DNA from: Bacteroidota bacterium | GTDB taxonomy: Bacteria; Bacteroidota; Bacteroidia; Bacteroidales; FEN-979 | Length of the DNA stretch: 64,000 bases | Direction of reading: 5' to 3' | NCBI GenBank assembly: GCA_026391355.1 | Contig: JAPLDH010000049.1 | Location: forward strand, 1-64,000 | Shown: positions 9,109-27,067 of the stretch, one piece after another | Position numbering within the stretch: position 1 is the first letter of the stretch | How the letters are laid out: each line of letters starts with the position of its first letter | Translations under genes and position numbers: made by a program | The notes under the pieces: generated by a model | Databases searched by the model: none | What the model was told of the DNA's origin: nothing | What the model saw: only the letters and a program-made list of their open reading frames with translations

Positions 9109-9111
9109 AAT

Positions 9112-9145
9112 AAAAAATCCCCCCGAACTTTCGGGGGGATTTTTT
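9112..9145. terminator. Bidirectional terminator between mpg and hup
   Basis: Perfect 15-bp stem: CCCCCCGA / TCGGGGGG extended by AAAAAAT / ATTTTTT, with an ACTT loop. The T-run on each strand suits both the plus-strand mpg and the converging minus-strand HU gene. Confidence 0.93.
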
Positions 9146-9169
9146 ATTGAATTTCCTTCATTCTCTTAA

Positions 9170-18754: not shown

Positions 18755-21178
18755 ATGAAAAACCTCTCCTTTAAAATGATAGTTCCCTACCTGACAGCTA
18801 TCCTGCTATTCCTGGTCATCACTTTGGTTTATTTCAGCCCGTTGCTTGAAGGAAAACGACTCCTTCAAAGTGACATTGTTCACCATCAGGGTGTCTCTAA
18901 AGAAATATCCGATTATCGTGACAAAACAGGCCATGAAGCACTCTGGACAAATTCGATGTTCGGGGGAATGCCTGCTTACCAGATCTCTGTAAGATATACA
19001 TCCAACCTGATCGGGTACCTGGATAAAGTATTTACACTGTGGTTGCCCAATCCCGCAAACTATCTCTTTCTCTATTTCCTTGGTTTCTTCGTTTTAATGC
19101 TTGTTTTAGGGGTAAATCCATGGCTTGCAATAGCAGGATCGATCGGATTCGGCCTCTCATCCTTTTTCCTCATCGTAATTGAAGCCGGCCATAACTCCCA
19201 GGCACATGCCATTGGCTATATCGGTTTCGTTCTTGCCGGTATCATACTTACACTCAGGAAAAAATATCTTATCGGGGGCATTGTTACTGCTGTTTTTCTT
19301 TCCCTTGAACTGAATGCAAACCATCCCCAGATCGCCTATTATATGGTGATACTTGCTGTTCTTTACGGCATCTTTGAATTAATAGGGGCGATTAAAACAA
19401 AGACCTTCCTTCCCTACCTGAAATCCATTGGCATTATTATGGTGGCTGTTCTGTTCGCTTTCCTGACAAACATTACAAGCCTTTGGGCCACCTATGAATA
19501 CGGGAAATATACTATTCGCGGAAAATCCGAACTGACCACTGAAAAGGAAAACCGGACATCAGGTCTTGATAAAGACTATGTGACACACTGGAGCTATGGG
19601 ATCGCCGAGACAATGACGCTGCTTATCCCAAATGTTTATGGAGGTACCTATCAGAAGCTTTCGATGAATTCGGAAATTGCCAAAGCCCTGGAACAAAATA
19701 ATTATCCTCCACGGGAAATCATGAAAGAACAACAATGGCCAATGTACTGGGGTTCCCAGCCGTTTACCTCCGGTCCTGTTTATGTCGGGGCGATCATTGT
19801 CTTTCTGTTTGTCCTGGGATTATTTGTTGTTAAAGGACCTTTAAAATGGTGGCTGCTTGCCGGTACAATATTATCCATAATGCTGGCCTGGGGCCATAAC
19901 TTCATGACACTGACCGACTTTTTCCTCAATTATGTCCCTGGATATAATAAATTCAGGGCAGTGACTATGACCCTTGTCATCGCGGAAATTTCAATGCCGA
20001 TTCTGGGAATACTGGCCATTAAGGAAATTTTTAACCCTGAAAATGATCGGAAAAAATTATTCAAGGCACTGCAGATCGCATTTTTTATTACCGGTGGTAC
20101 ATGCCTCATTTTTGCCCTGCTCCCCGGAATGTTTTTCAATTTTGTCGGAGCAAGTGATAAATCACAAGGTTTACCCGATTTTATGATGAATGCACTTATT
20201 ATTGACAGAAAAAATCTCCTTGTTTCCGATGCTTTCCGTTCATTTGCACTTATTACCTTGACCGCTGGTTTGCTCTGGGCAGTTCTTTATAAGAAATTTA
20301 AATTGGCATATGCGTTTCCTGTTCTGATTGGATTGATTCTCATCGATTTGTTCATGGTCGATAAAAGATATTTGAACAACGACAGCTTTACCACAAAAGC
20401 GAAAGTTGAAAAACCTTTTGAACCAACTCAGGCTGACCAGCAAATTCTCCAGGATAATTCTTTGGATTACAGGGTTTATAACGCTACCATTGACCCCACC
20501 ATGGATGCAGGAACTTCATATTTCCATAAGTCGCTGGGAGGCTATCACGGGGCTAAGCTGCGCCGCTACCAGGAACTGATCGATTACCAGATAGGAAAAA
20601 ATAATATGCAGGTACTAAATATGCTGAATACTAAATATGTTATCGTACCGGATGCAAACAAAAACCCTCTTGCACAACAAAATCCCGATGCACTCGGGAA
20701 CGCCTGGTTTGTGAAAGGATACAAACTGGTGGAAAATCCGGATGCAGAGATCAATGCGCTAACGAAATTCAATGCGAAGGATACGGCAATTATTGATAAG
20801 ACCTTTTCGGCAGCGTTGAAAGATTATTCCCCAGGCAGAGATTCAGCAGATTTTATTAAACTCGACAGCTATGAGCCAAATAACCTTGCTTATTCTTACA
20901 AAACAAAAAGCAACGGTCTTGCAGTCTTTTCTGAGATCTATTACCCGAAAGGATGGGAAGCTACAATAGATAGTAAACCAGCTCCCATATTCAGGGTTAA
21001 TTATGTATTACGGGCAATGGTGCTCCCTGCCGGGGAACATAAAGTGGTATTCAACTTTCATCCAAAAGTTTATTATGTCGGAGAAAAGATCTCCCTGGCG
21101 AGTTCCCTCGTATTGATTGTTTTCATTGTTCTTTTCGGAGGTTTTGAGATCCGCATGGCAATGAAACCAAAAGCATGA
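18755..21178 (+). CDS. YfhO-family membrane protein
   Basis: 807 residues, about 12-14 membrane segments. The family pattern is clear: the first loop after TM1 has LLQSDIVHHQGVSKEI, then LWTNSMFGGMPAYQIS; later a GAGHNSQAHA-like loop (IEAGHNSQAHAIGYIGFVLA), and a C-terminal periplasmic beta-rich domain (LAVFSEIYYPKGWEATID, RAMVLPAGEHKVVFNFHPKV) before a last membrane helix. YfhO proteins are GT-C-like and have been tied to glycosylation of cell-wall polymers; here the sugar and acceptor are unknown. The gene overlaps the next glycosyltransferase by 4 bases (ATGA), so the two are translationally coupled and probably act together. Confidence 0.9.
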   Translation: MKNLSFKMIVPYLTAILLFLVITLVYFSPLLEGKRLLQSDIVHHQGVSKEISDYRDKTGHEALWTNSMFGGMPAYQISVRYTSNLIGYLDKVFTLWLPNPANYLFLYFLGFFVLMLVLGVNPWLAIAGSIGFGLSSFFLIVIEAGHNSQAHAIGYIGFVLAGIILTLRKKYLIGGIVTAVFLSLELNANHPQIAYYMVILAVLYGIFELIGAIKTKTFLPYLKSIGIIMVAVLFAFLTNITSLWATYEYGKYTIRGKSELTTEKENRTSGLDKDYVTHWSYGIAETMTLLIPNVYGGTYQKLSMNSEIAKALEQNNYPPREIMKEQQWPMYWGSQPFTSGPVYVGAIIVFLFVLGLFVVKGPLKWWLLAGTILSIMLAWGHNFMTLTDFFLNYVPGYNKFRAVTMTLVIAEISMPILGILAIKEIFNPENDRKKLFKALQIAFFITGGTCLIFALLPGMFFNFVGASDKSQGLPDFMMNALIIDRKNLLVSDAFRSFALITLTAGLLWAVLYKKFKLAYAFPVLIGLILIDLFMVDKRYLNNDSFTTKAKVEKPFEPTQADQQILQDNSLDYRVYNATIDPTMDAGTSYFHKSLGGYHGAKLRRYQELIDYQIGKNNMQVLNMLNTKYVIVPDANKNPLAQQNPDALGNAWFVKGYKLVENPDAEINALTKFNAKDTAIIDKTFSAALKDYSPGRDSADFIKLDSYEPNNLAYSYKTKSNGLAVFSEIYYPKGWEATIDSKPAPIFRVNYVLRAMVLPAGEHKVVFNFHPKVYYVGEKISLASSLVLIVFIVLFGGFEIRMAMKPKA

Positions 21179-22473
21179 AAAAAGCGCTGATCATTACCTA
21201 TTACTGGCCTCCGAGTGGTGGTGCCGGTGTTCAACGATGGCTGAAATTCGTTAAATACCTTCGTGGATTCGGTTGGGAACCCATTGTCTATACCCCCGAG
21301 AATCCTGAATTTCCTGAGATTGATAACTCCCTTTATAACGATATTCCTGATAATATTACGGTTATTAAAACGCCGATCCGGGAACCTTATAACGCTTATA
21401 AACGTCTGATCGGACAGAAAAAAGAGGAAAGGATAAATCCAAGTTTCCTTTCAGAGAAAAAAAGAAATCCTCTGCTTGAAAATATTTCAGTATGGATAAG
21501 AGGCAATTTCTTTATTCCTGATGCAAGGATGTTCTGGATCCGGCCCTCAGTAAGGTTCTTACTCAGCTACTTAGAAGAGAATCCGGTTGATATTATTATT
21601 TCGACAGGTCCCCCCCACAGCATGCACATCATCGGGATGAACATCAGCAAGGTTCTCAACCTCCCGTGGATCGCTGATTTCCGTGATCCCTGGACAAACA
21701 TCGATTTCTATAAGGAACTGAGACTGACCTGTTTGGCTGATCATCGTCACCGGAAGATGGAATTACAGGTACTTTCCCGCGCATCTGCAGTCACATGTAT
21801 CGGCGATTCCATGGCAGAAGATTTCAATAAATTGTTTACCCGGAAATATGATGTGATAACCAATGGATATGACGGAGATGATATATCACAGAACGAAACC
21901 CCTGCACCTGACCGAAAATTCTCCATCTCATATATCGGAACCATGGTCAGTTCACGAAACCCGGTTTCTTTCTGGACAGCCATTCAGTCGTTGGTAAATG
22001 AGAACAAGGATTTTCGCGACGACCTGCTGATCAGGTTGGTAGGGAAAACTGATTATTCAGTTATGGATTCTATCAATCAATCCGGGTTAACCGGTTATGT
22101 TGAAAAGGTAGATTACTTACCACACAGGGACGTCATTAAGATTCAGCGTCAAACGCAGGTTCTACTGCTCATCATCAATGATACACCGAATGCAAAGATG
22201 ATACTCACCGGTAAGTTCTTTGAATACATGGCAGCCCGGAGACCAATCCTATGCATCGGACCCATTGACGGTGATGCATCAAAAATTCTTGCTGAAACGA
22301 ATTCAGGCATGATCGCGGGATTCTCAAACGCTCAAAGGGTGAAAGAAATCATACAGGTCTATTATTCAAAATTCAAAGCCGGAACCCTGTTTTCTGAAAG
22401 TACTAATATTGAAGCTTATTCGAGAAAAGCCTTAACGGAGAAATTGAGCAAGATCATGGACTCGTTGGTCTGA
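21175..22473 (+). CDS. Glycosyltransferase (GT4-like, GT-B fold)
   Basis: 432 residues, cytoplasmic or membrane-associated. N-terminus KKALIITYYWPPSGGAGVQR (glycine-rich acceptor loop), WIADFRDPW in the middle, a second Rossmann half from about residue 240 (FSISYIGTMVSSRNP), and TGKFFEYMAARRPILCIG, the Bacteroidota version of the nucleotide-sugar-binding E..A.G.P motif. Function: transfer of an unidentified sugar in polysaccharide or glycolipid synthesis. Starts inside the last codons of the YfhO gene. The left arm of the inverted-repeat cassette begins 5 bases after its stop. Confidence 0.88.
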   Translation: MKKALIITYYWPPSGGAGVQRWLKFVKYLRGFGWEPIVYTPENPEFPEIDNSLYNDIPDNITVIKTPIREPYNAYKRLIGQKKEERINPSFLSEKKRNPLLENISVWIRGNFFIPDARMFWIRPSVRFLLSYLEENPVDIIISTGPPHSMHIIGMNISKVLNLPWIADFRDPWTNIDFYKELRLTCLADHRHRKMELQVLSRASAVTCIGDSMAEDFNKLFTRKYDVITNGYDGDDISQNETPAPDRKFSISYIGTMVSSRNPVSFWTAIQSLVNENKDFRDDLLIRLVGKTDYSVMDSINQSGLTGYVEKVDYLPHRDVIKIQRQTQVLLLIINDTPNAKMILTGKFFEYMAARRPILCIGPIDGDASKILAETNSGMIAGFSNAQRVKEIIQVYYSKFKAGTLFSESTNIEAYSRKALTEKLSKIMDSLV

Positions 22474-22477
22474 CCTT

Positions 22478-22968
22478 AGTAAATCAAAATGCAAAAATCA
22501 AATTGATTTGAAATGCCCATAAGTTTCCTACCTTGAGATGGTGTTATTTTGTCTTTGATTTTGCTGTAACTACAGATTTTGCTGAGATGTTAAGCAGTTC
22601 TTTTGATTCATTGAAAAGAAACCTTATTGCTTCATCGTTGGGGGAAATCATTTTTGCATTAATGATAACCTTAACCCAATAATTACATTCCCGGAGTTCC
22701 TTCACTACGATCTGCATTTTATGAATAAAATCTGCCCTGCTTTCTCCTGCTCTCGCTTCTTCATAATTTGCCCCGACAGAAGTGCCGGCCCTAAATAGCT
22801 GACTGTAAACATGCCGGCAGGAATAGGTTTTGAATAGCTGTTTCTCAATGTTTATTATATTTACCACAAGGATCATAAACCGATCTGACATCAAATCATA
22901 AAAAGTGTTCATAGTCATTTCCTTCTTATTTTGATTTTTACATTTTACATTTTGCATTTTGATTTACT
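22478..22968. repeat. 19-bp perfect inverted repeat bracketing the four-helix-bundle gene
   Basis: AGTAAATCAAAATGCAAAA (22478-22496) and its exact reverse complement (22950-22968) enclose one small gene. Inside the left arm is a 7-1-7 palindrome (22495-22509); the right side has a TGTAAAATGTAAAA tandem. I see no target-site duplication and no transposase, so this is a possible non-autonomous cassette rather than an insertion sequence. Confidence 0.7.
22544..22912 (-). CDS. Four-helix-bundle (S23/IVS-like) protein
   Basis: 122 residues from ATG 22912, chosen because AAGGAA lies at the right distance; an ATG at 22957 would add residues encoded by the AAATGTAAAATG tandem. Family signature: FRAGTSVGANYEEARAGESRADFIHKM and LRECNYWVKVI, as in S23-like proteins first seen in 23S rRNA intervening sequences of Leptospira and in Avd-like proteins of diversity-generating retroelements. 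It forms a pentameric helical bundle in known structures; its role in stand-alone form is unknown. It lies within a 19-bp inverted repeat, opposite in direction to both neighbours. Confidence 0.87.
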   Translation of the reverse strand: MNTFYDLMSDRFMILVVNIINIEKQLFKTYSCRHVYSQLFRAGTSVGANYEEARAGESRADFIHKMQIVVKELRECNYWVKVIINAKMISPNDEAIRFLFNESKELLNISAKSVVTAKSKTK

Positions 22969-23027
22969 GATGTTGCTTTATCGGGTTTACTTTGAAAAGG
23001 TCATACAAATCCTTTCAATATTTTTTG

Positions 23028-23035
23028 TAATTTTG
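23028..23035 (+). promoter_or_regulatory. -7 box (TAATTTTG) of rnpB
   Basis: TAnnTTTG 5 bases before the first base of helix P1, which fits the transcription start expected for RNase P RNA. Confidence 0.6.
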
Positions 23036-23040
23036 CACAA

Positions 23041-23409
23041 ACAACAGTTCGATCTATCGCTGCGGTTACGGATTTTCCGGAGACCGGAGAGGAAAGTCGG
23101 GACAACACAGAGCGCCATACTTCCTAACGGGAAGGCTTTCGGGATATAAAGGCCCGGGGGATAGAAAGTGCCACAGAAAATTACCGTCCCGGTTTCACAC
23201 CGGGATAAGGGTGAAAACGCGAGGTAAGAGCTCACGGTTATGGCAGGCAACTGCCATGAAGGGTAAACCTTATGGGTTGAAAGACCATGTACACTGACTG
23301 TTAAGGGCTGCTCGCCCAATGTCGGGGGGTAGGTCGATAAAGCCTGCAGGTGACTGCCGGCTTAGATAAATGATAGAATAGAACAGAATCCTGCTTACGG
23401 AACTGTTGT
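23041..23409 (+). ncRNA. rnpB: RNase P RNA, bacterial type A
   Basis: The catalytic RNA that matures tRNA 5' ends. Conserved blocks are seen in order: GAGAGGAAAGTCGGGAC (CR-I), ATAGAAAGTGCCACAGAAA, GGGTGAAAACGCGAGGTAAG, then AGCTCAC, and the 3' part of P4 in AACAGAATCCTGCTTACGG. The ends are set by helix P1: ACAACAGTTC (23041-23050) pairs perfectly with GAACTGTTGT (23400-23409). The T-run at 23409-23416 right after P1 serves as terminator. Minus-strand and plus-strand open frames across it are shadows. Confidence 0.95.
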
Positions 23410-23416
23410 TTTTTTA
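23409..23416 (+). terminator. T-run after helix P1 of RNase P RNA
   Basis: Eight T residues follow the P1 3' strand directly; P1 acts as the terminator stem. Confidence 0.6.
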
Positions 23417-23419
23417 TTC

Positions 23420-23475
23420 GAGTGATCGAGTGATCAAGTGATCGAGTGATCAAGTGATCGGGTGATCAAGTGATC
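23420..23475. repeat. Tandem array of seven 8-bp units (RRGTGATC)
   Basis: GAGTGATC twice, then AAGTGATC and GAGTGATC/GGGTGATC alternating, seven units in 56 bases. Every unit carries a GATC site. It opens the 307-base gene-free stretch between rnpB and gyrB (23410-23716). The rest of that stretch holds the palindromic repeat at 23500-23536, AT-rich sequence and the gyrB promoter box. Confidence 0.9.
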
Positions 23476-23499
23476 CGCGAATTGTTGATAACAAAGTTC

Positions 23500-23536
23500 A
23501 AGTGACATGTCCCAAGTCACATGTCACGAGTCACTT
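23500..23536. repeat. GTGACATGT / ACATGTCAC palindromic repeat
   Basis: AAGTGACATGT, AAGTCACATGTCAC and GAGTCACTT follow each other, giving partly overlapping inverted arms. Similar GTGAC/GTCAC words occur at the recQ 3' end (8447-8465). Confidence 0.6.
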
Positions 23537-23677
23537 TCTGGAGAATATCCATAAATACCATAACATTTACACATCTTTTTCTTCCTTGTAACCTCCATCA
23601 AACTTTTCACTAAAATTTGTTAATAAAATAGTTGATATTCCTGATATTATATTGCCTTCGGATTCAACTTTTTTTCG

Positions 23678-23685
23678 TAAATTTG
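23678..23685 (+). promoter_or_regulatory. -7 box (TAAATTTG) of gyrB
   Basis: TAnnTTTG 31 bases before the gyrB ATG at 23717. A TTG at 23652 is 23 bases upstream, slightly far for the -33 element. Confidence 0.5.
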
Positions 23686-23698
23686 TTGTATTATTTAA

Positions 23699-25678
<1,980 letters not shown>

Positions 25679-25705
25679 ATTTGTATCTTCAAGTATAATA
25701 TTTCC

Positions 25706-27067
25706 ATGAAACGAAAACGATACTTTTTTATTATTGCCGGGATCGCTGCCCTTGCAATTGTAGCTTATTTTATCTTTTCCAAACCTCAACGAACCCAGCA
25801 GATCTTTGCAAAGGTTAAGAAAGGGAACTTCCCGATAGAGGTTACCACAACCGGTGAACTTCTGGCAAAAAGTTCTGAGAAGATCGGGGCCCCCGCTGCA
25901 TTAAGGCAACTCTGGATCTACCAGATCAAAATTCAGGACATCCGTCCCGAAGGAACCCATGTCGATTCTGGTGATTATGTGGCTACACTCGATCGCACCG
26001 AGATCTCAAACCGGATGAAGGATGAGGAAACAAATGCTACAAAATTTGAAACTGAGTTGACAAGGGCAAAATTGGATACTGCCCTTCAATTGCAGAAAGC
26101 CAGGGACAATCTCGTTACCCTGAAATATGCACTGGAAGAAAGACAGATCGCTATGGATCAATCAAAATATGAAACACCTGCTACACAGCGACAGGTAGCA
26201 ATCGACCTTGAAAAATCCCAGCGAACCTATGAACAGGAGGTAAAAAATTATCAGTTGGTACGTAAAATGAATGTTGCCACAGTGGAAGCTGCAAAAGCCA
26301 ATTATGTACAGGCTAAAAACAGGCTCGAACGAATGCAGGATGTACTGAAACAATTGACCATCACCGCTCCGAAATCGGGAATGCTCATCTATAAAAGAGA
26401 CTACAATGGACAAAAGATAGGAGTCAATTCAACCGTCAATCTTTGGGATAATGTAGTTGCAGAACTCCCCGATCTTTCCAAAATGAACTCCCGAACCTAT
26501 ATCAATGAAATTGATATAAGTAAGATCCGCAAAGGACAATCTGTAAAAGTAAGCATTGATGCCTTCCCCGATAAAAAATTTACCGGATTTGTAGCTGAAG
26601 TTGCTAACATCGGTCAGCAGCAACCCAATTCGAATGCAAAGGTTTTTGAAGTACTGATCCGTATCAATGAAACCGATACGATCATTCTGAGGCCGGGAAT
26701 GACTACGAAAAATACCATCGGAACCGCCATGATCAATAACGTTTTTTCTATACCTATTGAAGCAGTATTCGGAAATGACAGCATCAGTTTTGTTTATAAA
26801 AAAGATGGGGGCTCGTTTTCCAAACAACAGGTGGTTGTTGGTCAGACCAATGAAAATGAGATCATAATAAAGGAGGGTTTGATTGAAGGTGAAGAGGTGA
26901 CTCTTCTTGAACCTGAGCAGAATGATAAAATGAAACTTCATACCCTTTCACCTAACATTCTTGCCAAATATAAAACACATCCTGATGAGGAACAAGGAAA
27001 AGAACGTGTCAACACTTCATCCGGTCAGGAATCACCAAAAAATACAAAACAAAAAATAAATAAATAA
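25706..27067 (+). CDS. Periplasmic adaptor (HlyD/MacA-like) of an efflux system
   Basis: 453 residues. One N-terminal membrane anchor (YFFIIAGIAALAIVAYFIFS), then barrel-sandwich/lipoyl halves around a long alpha-helical hairpin (about residues 105-210, Gln/Lys/Glu-rich coiled coil), then beta-barrel and membrane-proximal parts (LRPGMTTKNTIGTAMINNVF, SIPIEAVFGND). The C-terminal tail is charged. It should link an inner-membrane transporter to an outer-membrane channel; both a MacB-like permease and a TolC-like protein follow within 10 bases. Cargo unknown. Confidence 0.87.
   Translation: MKRKRYFFIIAGIAALAIVAYFIFSKPQRTQQIFAKVKKGNFPIEVTTTGELLAKSSEKIGAPAALRQLWIYQIKIQDIRPEGTHVDSGDYVATLDRTEISNRMKDEETNATKFETELTRAKLDTALQLQKARDNLVTLKYALEERQIAMDQSKYETPATQRQVAIDLEKSQRTYEQEVKNYQLVRKMNVATVEAAKANYVQAKNRLERMQDVLKQLTITAPKSGMLIYKRDYNGQKIGVNSTVNLWDNVVAELPDLSKMNSRTYINEIDISKIRKGQSVKVSIDAFPDKKFTGFVAEVANIGQQQPNSNAKVFEVLIRINETDTIILRPGMTTKNTIGTAMINNVFSIPIEAVFGNDSISFVYKKDGGSFSKQQVVVGQTNENEIIIKEGLIEGEEVTLLEPEQNDKMKLHTLSPNILAKYKTHPDEEQGKERVNTSSGQESPKNTKQKINK

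Follow-up and report, generated by a model that had tools for sequence, protein, structure and literature searches.

The window, a stretch of 64,000 nt from a Bacteroidota genome, carries a gene of the S23/IVP (four helix bundle) family on its minus strand, between a glycosyltransferase gene (21175-22473, plus strand; Pfam Glyco_transf_4, just below its cut-off) and rnpB (23041-23413, plus strand; Rfam). The sequence-only reading had described this placement, with the gene opposite to both neighbors and inside exact 19-nt inverted arms, and the open reading frame (ORF) list, Rfam, the family profiles and reverse-complement identity agree with it. In gene orientation, the 5' arm (22928-22968, minus strand; called at 22928-22965 by TRF) is a 7-nt tandem array, AAAATGY/AAAATCA, with AAAATGC, AAAATGT and AAAATCA among its heptamers, and the 3' arm (22478-22505, minus strand) is its inverted counterpart. 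The outermost parts of the arms, 22950-22968 and 22478-22496, are exact reverse complements over 19 nt, and the 3' arm matches over 33 nt at 82% identity (22473-22505). Exact 19-mer inverted pairs no more than 600 nt apart occur twice in the whole window, the S23 arms being one of the two, and are absent from 20 shuffles of the window in two-base blocks. The other pair is a short hairpin at 9109-9148 (9109/9130).

The listed ORF (22544-22957, minus strand) begins at an ATG (22957) that lies inside the arm. A start at 22918, after AGAAGGAA, is likelier on reading of the sequence and gives a probable CDS of 124 amino acids (22544-22918, minus strand). Upstream of the gene is a leader motif, TGACCTTTT-N10-CCGATAAA (22977-23003, minus strand; coordinates read from the sequence), which is probably its promoter. 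As this motif lies just outside the 491-bp unit that had been proposed as a minimal cassette, the functional unit probably spans about 22474-23010; the cassette idea holds for a compact unit with one gene and inverted ends, but not for the stated boundaries, since they omit the leader. Behind rnpB follow arrays of the same kind without a gene (23418-23534, strand unspecified), made of the octamer GAGTGATC and then of AAGTCACATGTCAC. Rfam at gathering scores gives rnpB only, and no rRNA, at the window, and no reverse transcriptase is recognized by reading among the ORFs listed at 19000-27000. When the whole 491-bp unit was used as query and 40 of 99 first-look candidates were scored, there were 21 matches besides self, all of them array fragments in query positions 439-491, and no second copy of the window S23 gene.

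The window ORF scores above the curated cut-off with two family profiles, PF05635 (E 5e-14) and TIGR02436, named "four helix bundle protein" (E 2e-20), and its sequence also matches PDB chain 2rld (E 2e-15). PF05635 is the only Pfam match of the protein, with no catalytic domain and no Y1 transposase. Its predicted structure has four helices (pLDDT 92), and the best fold matches of this model in the PDB are 2rld and then 2gsc, both solved S23 proteins. Thus, by profile and fold, the protein belongs to the S23/IVP four-helix-bundle family. An Avd chain from a diversity-generating retroelement (DGR) complex, 8ub7, is also among the structural neighbors of the predicted bundle, at rank 17 (TM 0.77 by target length, E 0.17), where it is outranked by plant methylesterase inhibitors.

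Matched inverted arms are found around most S23 genes of this and related genomes. The genome of the window (4.83 Mb) has 22 PF05635 genes. The 350 nt upstream of each domain were compared with the reverse complement of the sequence from 30 nt before the stop to 350 nt after it, and arms were called at an inverted-arm score of at least 18. This score is reached by 18 of the 22 S23 genes of the window's own genome and by 76 of the 92 gene hits found at 87 loci of relatives, which were picked from the hit list by rank and genome, with flanks not considered. Control genes came from 400 kb of the own genome, in stretches without S23 that were picked by hand; the score is reached by 3 of 277 of them, and by 2 of 49 isolated ones (Fisher test, own S23 genes against isolated own genes, 4e-11; relatives' S23 genes against own-genome genes, a comparison across genomes, 1e-58). 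The best scores from 100 shuffles of each locus are 11-15, and real scores go up to 58. At this threshold, four own S23 genes and 16 of the relatives' hits have no arms, and two own loci (L014 and L019) score no better than their shuffles. S23 genes without the repeats in relatives, which had been named in advance as counting against the cassette, therefore do occur, but only as this fraction.

The arms are mostly tandem arrays of 7- or 8-nt units, with a word that matches within a locus and differs between loci. Of the 92 arm pairs, 42 have a best period of 7 and 27 one of 8 (69 together), and the words include GGCACGA, GGGACAT, AAGTCGT, GTGATCGA, TTAAGTG, GGTTAAT and others. For 19 of the 22 own loci, a gene's own downstream arm ranks best of all 22, and only 4 of 462 cross-locus arm pairs score 18 or more. 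The 5' arm has more G than C in 79 of 92 hits, more C than G in 10, and equal numbers in three, including the window. As the window 19-mer has as many G as C, the G-first polarity of the other loci is not visible there, and with arms of 19 nt this locus exemplifies the rule only weakly. The sequence-only reading had suggested looking for the 19-mer pair around other four-helix-bundle genes; the ends are instead arrays that have period 7/8, polarity and self-match in common. A fixed 19-mer terminus common to S23 genes is ruled out by arms that match within but not between loci, and the locus-specific words likewise do not fit a classical terminal inverted repeat of transposon or MITE type, conserved across copies.

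Empty sites, which had also been anticipated, exist at the window locus and elsewhere. From the glycosyltransferase stop to the start of rnpB (AACAACAGTTC) there are 566 nt in the window, versus 30 nt in G001 (same genus as the window genome) and 31 nt in G006 (same family), and both of these sites are without arms, leader and gene. The extra sequence of the window relative to them is approximately 22474-23010, from the glycosyltransferase stop to the rnpB promoter. Among 29 loci examined in relatives, these are the two in which rnpB directly follows the glycosyltransferase; in seven others a further gene intervenes and rnpB lies about 1.4 kb downstream, and in the remaining 20 rnpB is outside the examined stretch. 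None of the 29 glycosyltransferase loci has an S23 gene. A comparison of the S23 insertions of G000 with those of fetched relatives gave a few flank matches.

A second site, between two genes of Mesorhizobium, was searched in 99 genomes. The 70 loci fetched (30 best matches, which favors filled sites, and 40 picked by the gap between flank matches) are a chosen set and not a census, and 65 of them have both flanks. These comprise 10 empty sites (8-12 nt between the flanks), 27 array hairpins without S23 (95-212 nt) and 28 sites filled with S23, one of which holds a truncated gene. The hairpins are G-first in 27 of 27, and score at least 12 in 24 of 27, versus 0 of 27 shuffles. Words in hairpin-only sites are mostly 7-mers and those in filled sites mostly 8-mers, and the 3' tails also differ; thus, direct conversion between the hairpin and S23 states is not shown. 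On a weakly supported tree of 220 columns, empty, hairpin and filled sites are interspersed, with 21 changes (just three per state being forced by starred branches), suggesting that these states have been mixed along the Mesorhizobium phylogeny. Over 26 filled sites, the composition of the 5' arm correlates with that of the 3' arm (rho 0.59, kinship ignored), which points to homogenization between arms. The 3' arm tends to be longer, as more units are counted at that end (means of 8.7 in the last 140 nt and 3.5 in the first 90 nt of filled elements). The element begins near the upstream stop codon. Some filled sites have a GTGAG-like motif on both sides, and with no close empty parent a target-site duplication is not definable.

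Arrays of the same kind are also dispersed without the gene. In 464 kb of the window's own genome (the 400 kb of control stretches plus the window), there are 77 arrays without S23. Besides the window's own arms, eight gene-less inverted pairs are found there, mostly with short loops (five G-first, two C-first and one equal), and only one pair (L145) is as large as a cassette. In Mesorhizobium, S23 cassettes are very clear, one example, (TAGGCAG)n-S23-(CTGCCTA)n, lying immediately between two genes. Elements without S23 are present in these genomes too, and have a short loop and octamer words identical to those of the cassettes. Twelve such stretches were fetched from elsewhere in three Mesorhizobium genomes, including a lone arm (L356), a stretch cut off by the end of its contig (L358) and one assessed only visually (L359); all 10 that were scored are G-first.

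Many of the S23 genes in the window's family of Bacteroidota have a leader in common. The motif TGTATGACCTTTT-N9/10-CCGATTAA precedes 13 of the 22 own S23 genes and 50 of the 92 relatives' hits, versus two and two after shuffling. Perfect matches to TGACCTTTTN{4,14}GATTAA number 28 in the own genome, ten of them preceding S23 genes, and the reversed pattern has none there. A TWACC version is found in 22 of 41 genomes (18 of 25 in the family), and the reversed control gives zero in all 25. Other genes behind the motif, identified mostly by Pfam, include comF-like, comM-like, recJ, topA and radC in the own genome, and comEC, comM, recJ and a sigma-70 region 2 protein in relatives. As several motif sites precede other genes or no clear gene (ORF6N, DUF559, Nudix, DUF4160 and unknowns), the link to competence is based on few genes. 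Close relatives of the sigma gene (E no higher than 1e-34) are present in 24 of the 25 family genomes, and among 23 scored loci, which include one from outside the family, the motif (at least 12 of 16 positions) lies directly upstream of the gene in 22; two more distant sigma loci have motif scores of 9 and 13. Before the sigma gene the motif is spelled by genus (GTATAACC, GTATTACC, GTGTGACT), and on reading, S23 leaders tend to follow the spelling of the same genome's sigma-gene motif. From these loci (L075, L076, L082, L096, L214, L218, L225, L227 and L430-L453) we infer a putative autoregulated ECF-type sigma factor, the regulon of which would comprise many S23 genes and some competence genes. 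If the leader is a promoter common to some genes of DNA uptake and DNA processing, the activity of the unit may coincide with competence. In addition, G017 has nine identical copies of TTACCTTTTCCTGTTTTTCCGATTAA on several contigs, several of them near contig starts, suggesting a repeated element that bears the same leader.

The 5' arm lies upstream of the leader motif in 48 of the 51 loci that have both leader and arms. With the motif as promoter, the arms of most of these loci would be a feature at the level of DNA. Among the three exceptions is the window, its arm being downstream of the motif in gene orientation, and both of its arms could be transcribed and fold (RNA z -2.6). The earlier suggestion that the unit is excised as an RNA hairpin is thus possible for the window itself, but given the order of arm and putative promoter in the 48 other loci it is not the main reading.

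The arm rule is wide but not universal. In a scan of named genomes, at least 581 S23-like stretches were found, the best 80 of which were kept and 79 could be scored. Among these best 80 of at least 581, 41 of the scored loci are from Bacteroidota, and 11 of them reach a score of 18 or more. The other 38, which include one of uncertain phylum labelled Algicola, reach it in 20 cases. The armed loci outside Bacteroidota include Mesorhizobium, Bosea, three cyanobacteria, Planctomycetota, Acidobacteria, SAR324, Clostridia and others. With all loci pooled, 43 of 79 score at least 16, versus 135 of 6162 cross-locus pairs, and polarity is 40 to 2, although a locus's own arm is ranked first in only 34 of 79. 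Arm scores at the S23 loci of Chryseobacterium, Winogradskyella and Lutibacter are not above those of shuffles, and many flavobacterial copies are without arms. S23 loci on cyanobacterial plasmids have inverted arms in six of six cases (five distinct), with scores of 21-28. On plasmid pANA02 of Anabaena sp. 90, an armed S23 gene (L494, 1483-1851) lies between cas6 and cas4 of a type I-D CRISPR operon, and on the related plasmids 1 and 2 of Calothrix brevissima NIES-22 (L460 and L461), S23 with TAGGGTG arms directly follows a gene of the phage-integrase family. One query of phage records gave no S23 match.

The association of S23 genes with arrays, the statistical polarity, the self-match and the empty sites are observed, as are S23-less hairpins of the same polarity, both at the same Mesorhizobium site and elsewhere in the same Mesorhizobium genomes. 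The S23 gene family and this kind of DNA repeat thus seem to belong together. It is somewhat probable, and is our preferred explanation, that the S23 gene and its inverted 7/8-nt arrays form one insertable unit, and that the S23-less hairpins are gene-less relatives of it, as REPINs are to RAYT genes. Each end of such a unit would be an array in which a 7- or 8-nt word is repeated in tandem, the two arrays being inverted relative to each other; usually the G-rich arm would stand at the 5' end and the C-rich arm at the 3' end, and the word would be free to drift, yet kept alike in both arms. The S23 protein may recognize the nucleic acid of the arms by spacing and strand and not by exact sequence, and may help to spread, repair or maintain them via host recombination. 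A possible background to such a role is that a solved relative is a pentamer of four-helix bundles, and that the fold resembles Avd of DGR complexes. In the window's family of Bacteroidota, the unit would often be read from a promoter common to some genes of DNA uptake and DNA processing.

The main rival is that the hairpins are features of the host, arising by slippage and fold-back, and that S23 genes, moved by other means, persist only after landing in the loop of a hairpin. Arrays without S23 are indeed common (77 in 464 kb), a hairpin without S23 occupies the Mesorhizobium site in 27 of the 65 loci, and the hairpin and S23 inhabitants of that site use different words. However, only one S23-less inverted pair in the 464 kb is of cassette size (L145), and matched arms are rare around control genes (3/277). 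Moreover, both empty sites of the window locus, in G001 and G006, are without arms, and no other ends able to move S23 genes are seen. This rival is regarded as rather unlikely. It is improbable that the element acts only at the level of RNA, with arms that pair in the transcript and either shield it or serve as a substrate of RNase III, and with an S23 protein that binds RNA and has no role at DNA. Such an arrangement has a precedent, as the accessible part of PMC4990558 describes rRNA intervening sequences (IVS) that carry S23 ORFs and have complementary ends cut by RNase III; it would also suit the foldable window arms and the start of the Mesorhizobium element near an upstream stop codon. 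It does not suit the 48 of 51 leader-bearing armed loci in which the 5' arm precedes the putative promoter, nor the orientation of the genes, as, among 85 loci, S23 runs antisense to both neighbors in 22 and has a co-directional upstream neighbor in 52. That the arms are an artifact of AT-rich, low-complexity flanks is scarcely credible. The window arms are short and AT-rich, and L014 and L019 do no better than shuffles, but the 20 window shuffles have no 19-mer pair, per-locus shuffles stay far below the highest real scores, and GC-rich Mesorhizobium has the same arrangement; chance inverted repeats are rejected by the shuffles and the control genes.

The proposed unit has likenesses to several known systems. 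With the 23S rRNA IVS of Leptospira, Coxiella and others it has in common the S23 family and complementary ends able to form a stem around the ORF, as well as a sporadic presence, so far as the accessible part of PMC4990558 describes these. Unlike those IVS, the window copy lies outside rRNA, between a protein gene and rnpB, with two relatives lacking the insertion, and S23 units have 7/8-nt array ends, a probable promoter of their own and many differing copies per genome. In RAYT/REPIN systems, one gene, which encodes a Y1 transposase, is flanked by a kind of repeat that is also dispersed without the gene as inverted pairs, and RAYTs promote the spread or upkeep of REPINs. S23 genes are likewise flanked by a kind of repeat that is dispersed without them (in Mesorhizobium, and as eight inverted pairs and 77 arrays in the own genome), but S23 is not a Y1 transposase, and its array words are locus-specific, unlike the conserved palindrome of REPINs. 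As in transposons and MITEs, empty sites occur, at the window site and at the Mesorhizobium site. The predicted four-helix bundle of the window protein is a likeness to the Avd of DGRs; near the window gene (19000-27000, by reading), no reverse transcriptase is recognized. As G062 has S23 cassettes and no RVT_1 match (G000 has three), a reverse transcriptase is unlikely as an obligatory partner.

The arms also resemble heptanucleotide arrays described from other bacteria. In the accessible part of PMC2670836, the STRR sequences of cyanobacteria are usually 7-bp repeats that can form a hairpin, with function given as unknown. The GGGAATC arrays of Xanthomonas are described, in the accessible part of PMC4692102, as intergenic, close to the 5' neighboring ORF, in inverted pairs in 70-75 cases and generally with no association with mobile elements found. 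TAACTGA heptamers are discussed as regulatory sites in what was accessible of PMC4679880, and the term S23 is absent from the accessible text of the latter two papers. S23 arms share with STRR and GGGAATC arrays their 7-nt tandem units and the ability to form hairpins. Xanthomonas also has an S23 gene, XCC0516. Cyanobacterial STRRs reportedly occur in rnpB too, by the title of one paper. No literature linking S23 genes to heptamer arrays was recognized among the openly licensed papers searched.

A broader version of the preferred explanation is possible, though held with more doubt than belief. S23 would be the cognate factor of single-gene elements found across phyla, with ends set by period (7/8 nt) and polarity; the heptanucleotide arrays of cyanobacteria, Xanthomonas and Bacteroidota would be gene-less derivatives, rRNA IVS would be members caught in rRNA, and the element of this Bacteroidota family would be wired into a sigma-driven competence regulon. 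Two old puzzles would thereby be joined, namely the function of the widespread S23 proteins and the origin and upkeep of bacterial heptanucleotide arrays. Should S23 act on the arrays, experiments could address both puzzles directly, and the element would be an insertable one recognized by repeat spacing and not by a fixed end sequence. A leader common to comEC, comF, comM, recJ and radC would in turn give a candidate competence regulator for the Bacteroidota family.

Inverted repeats also flank the DUF559 genes (PF04480, nuclease-like) of the same relatives (L462-L488, of which L471, L478 and L485 are from the own genome). They are present in 13 of the 17 loci with full flanks, seven short ones being left out. 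Their words differ from those of S23 and are mostly C-rich, for example CTCACCCCCTGCCCCCTCTCC. DUF559 genes may represent a second system of a single gene with dispersed repeats.
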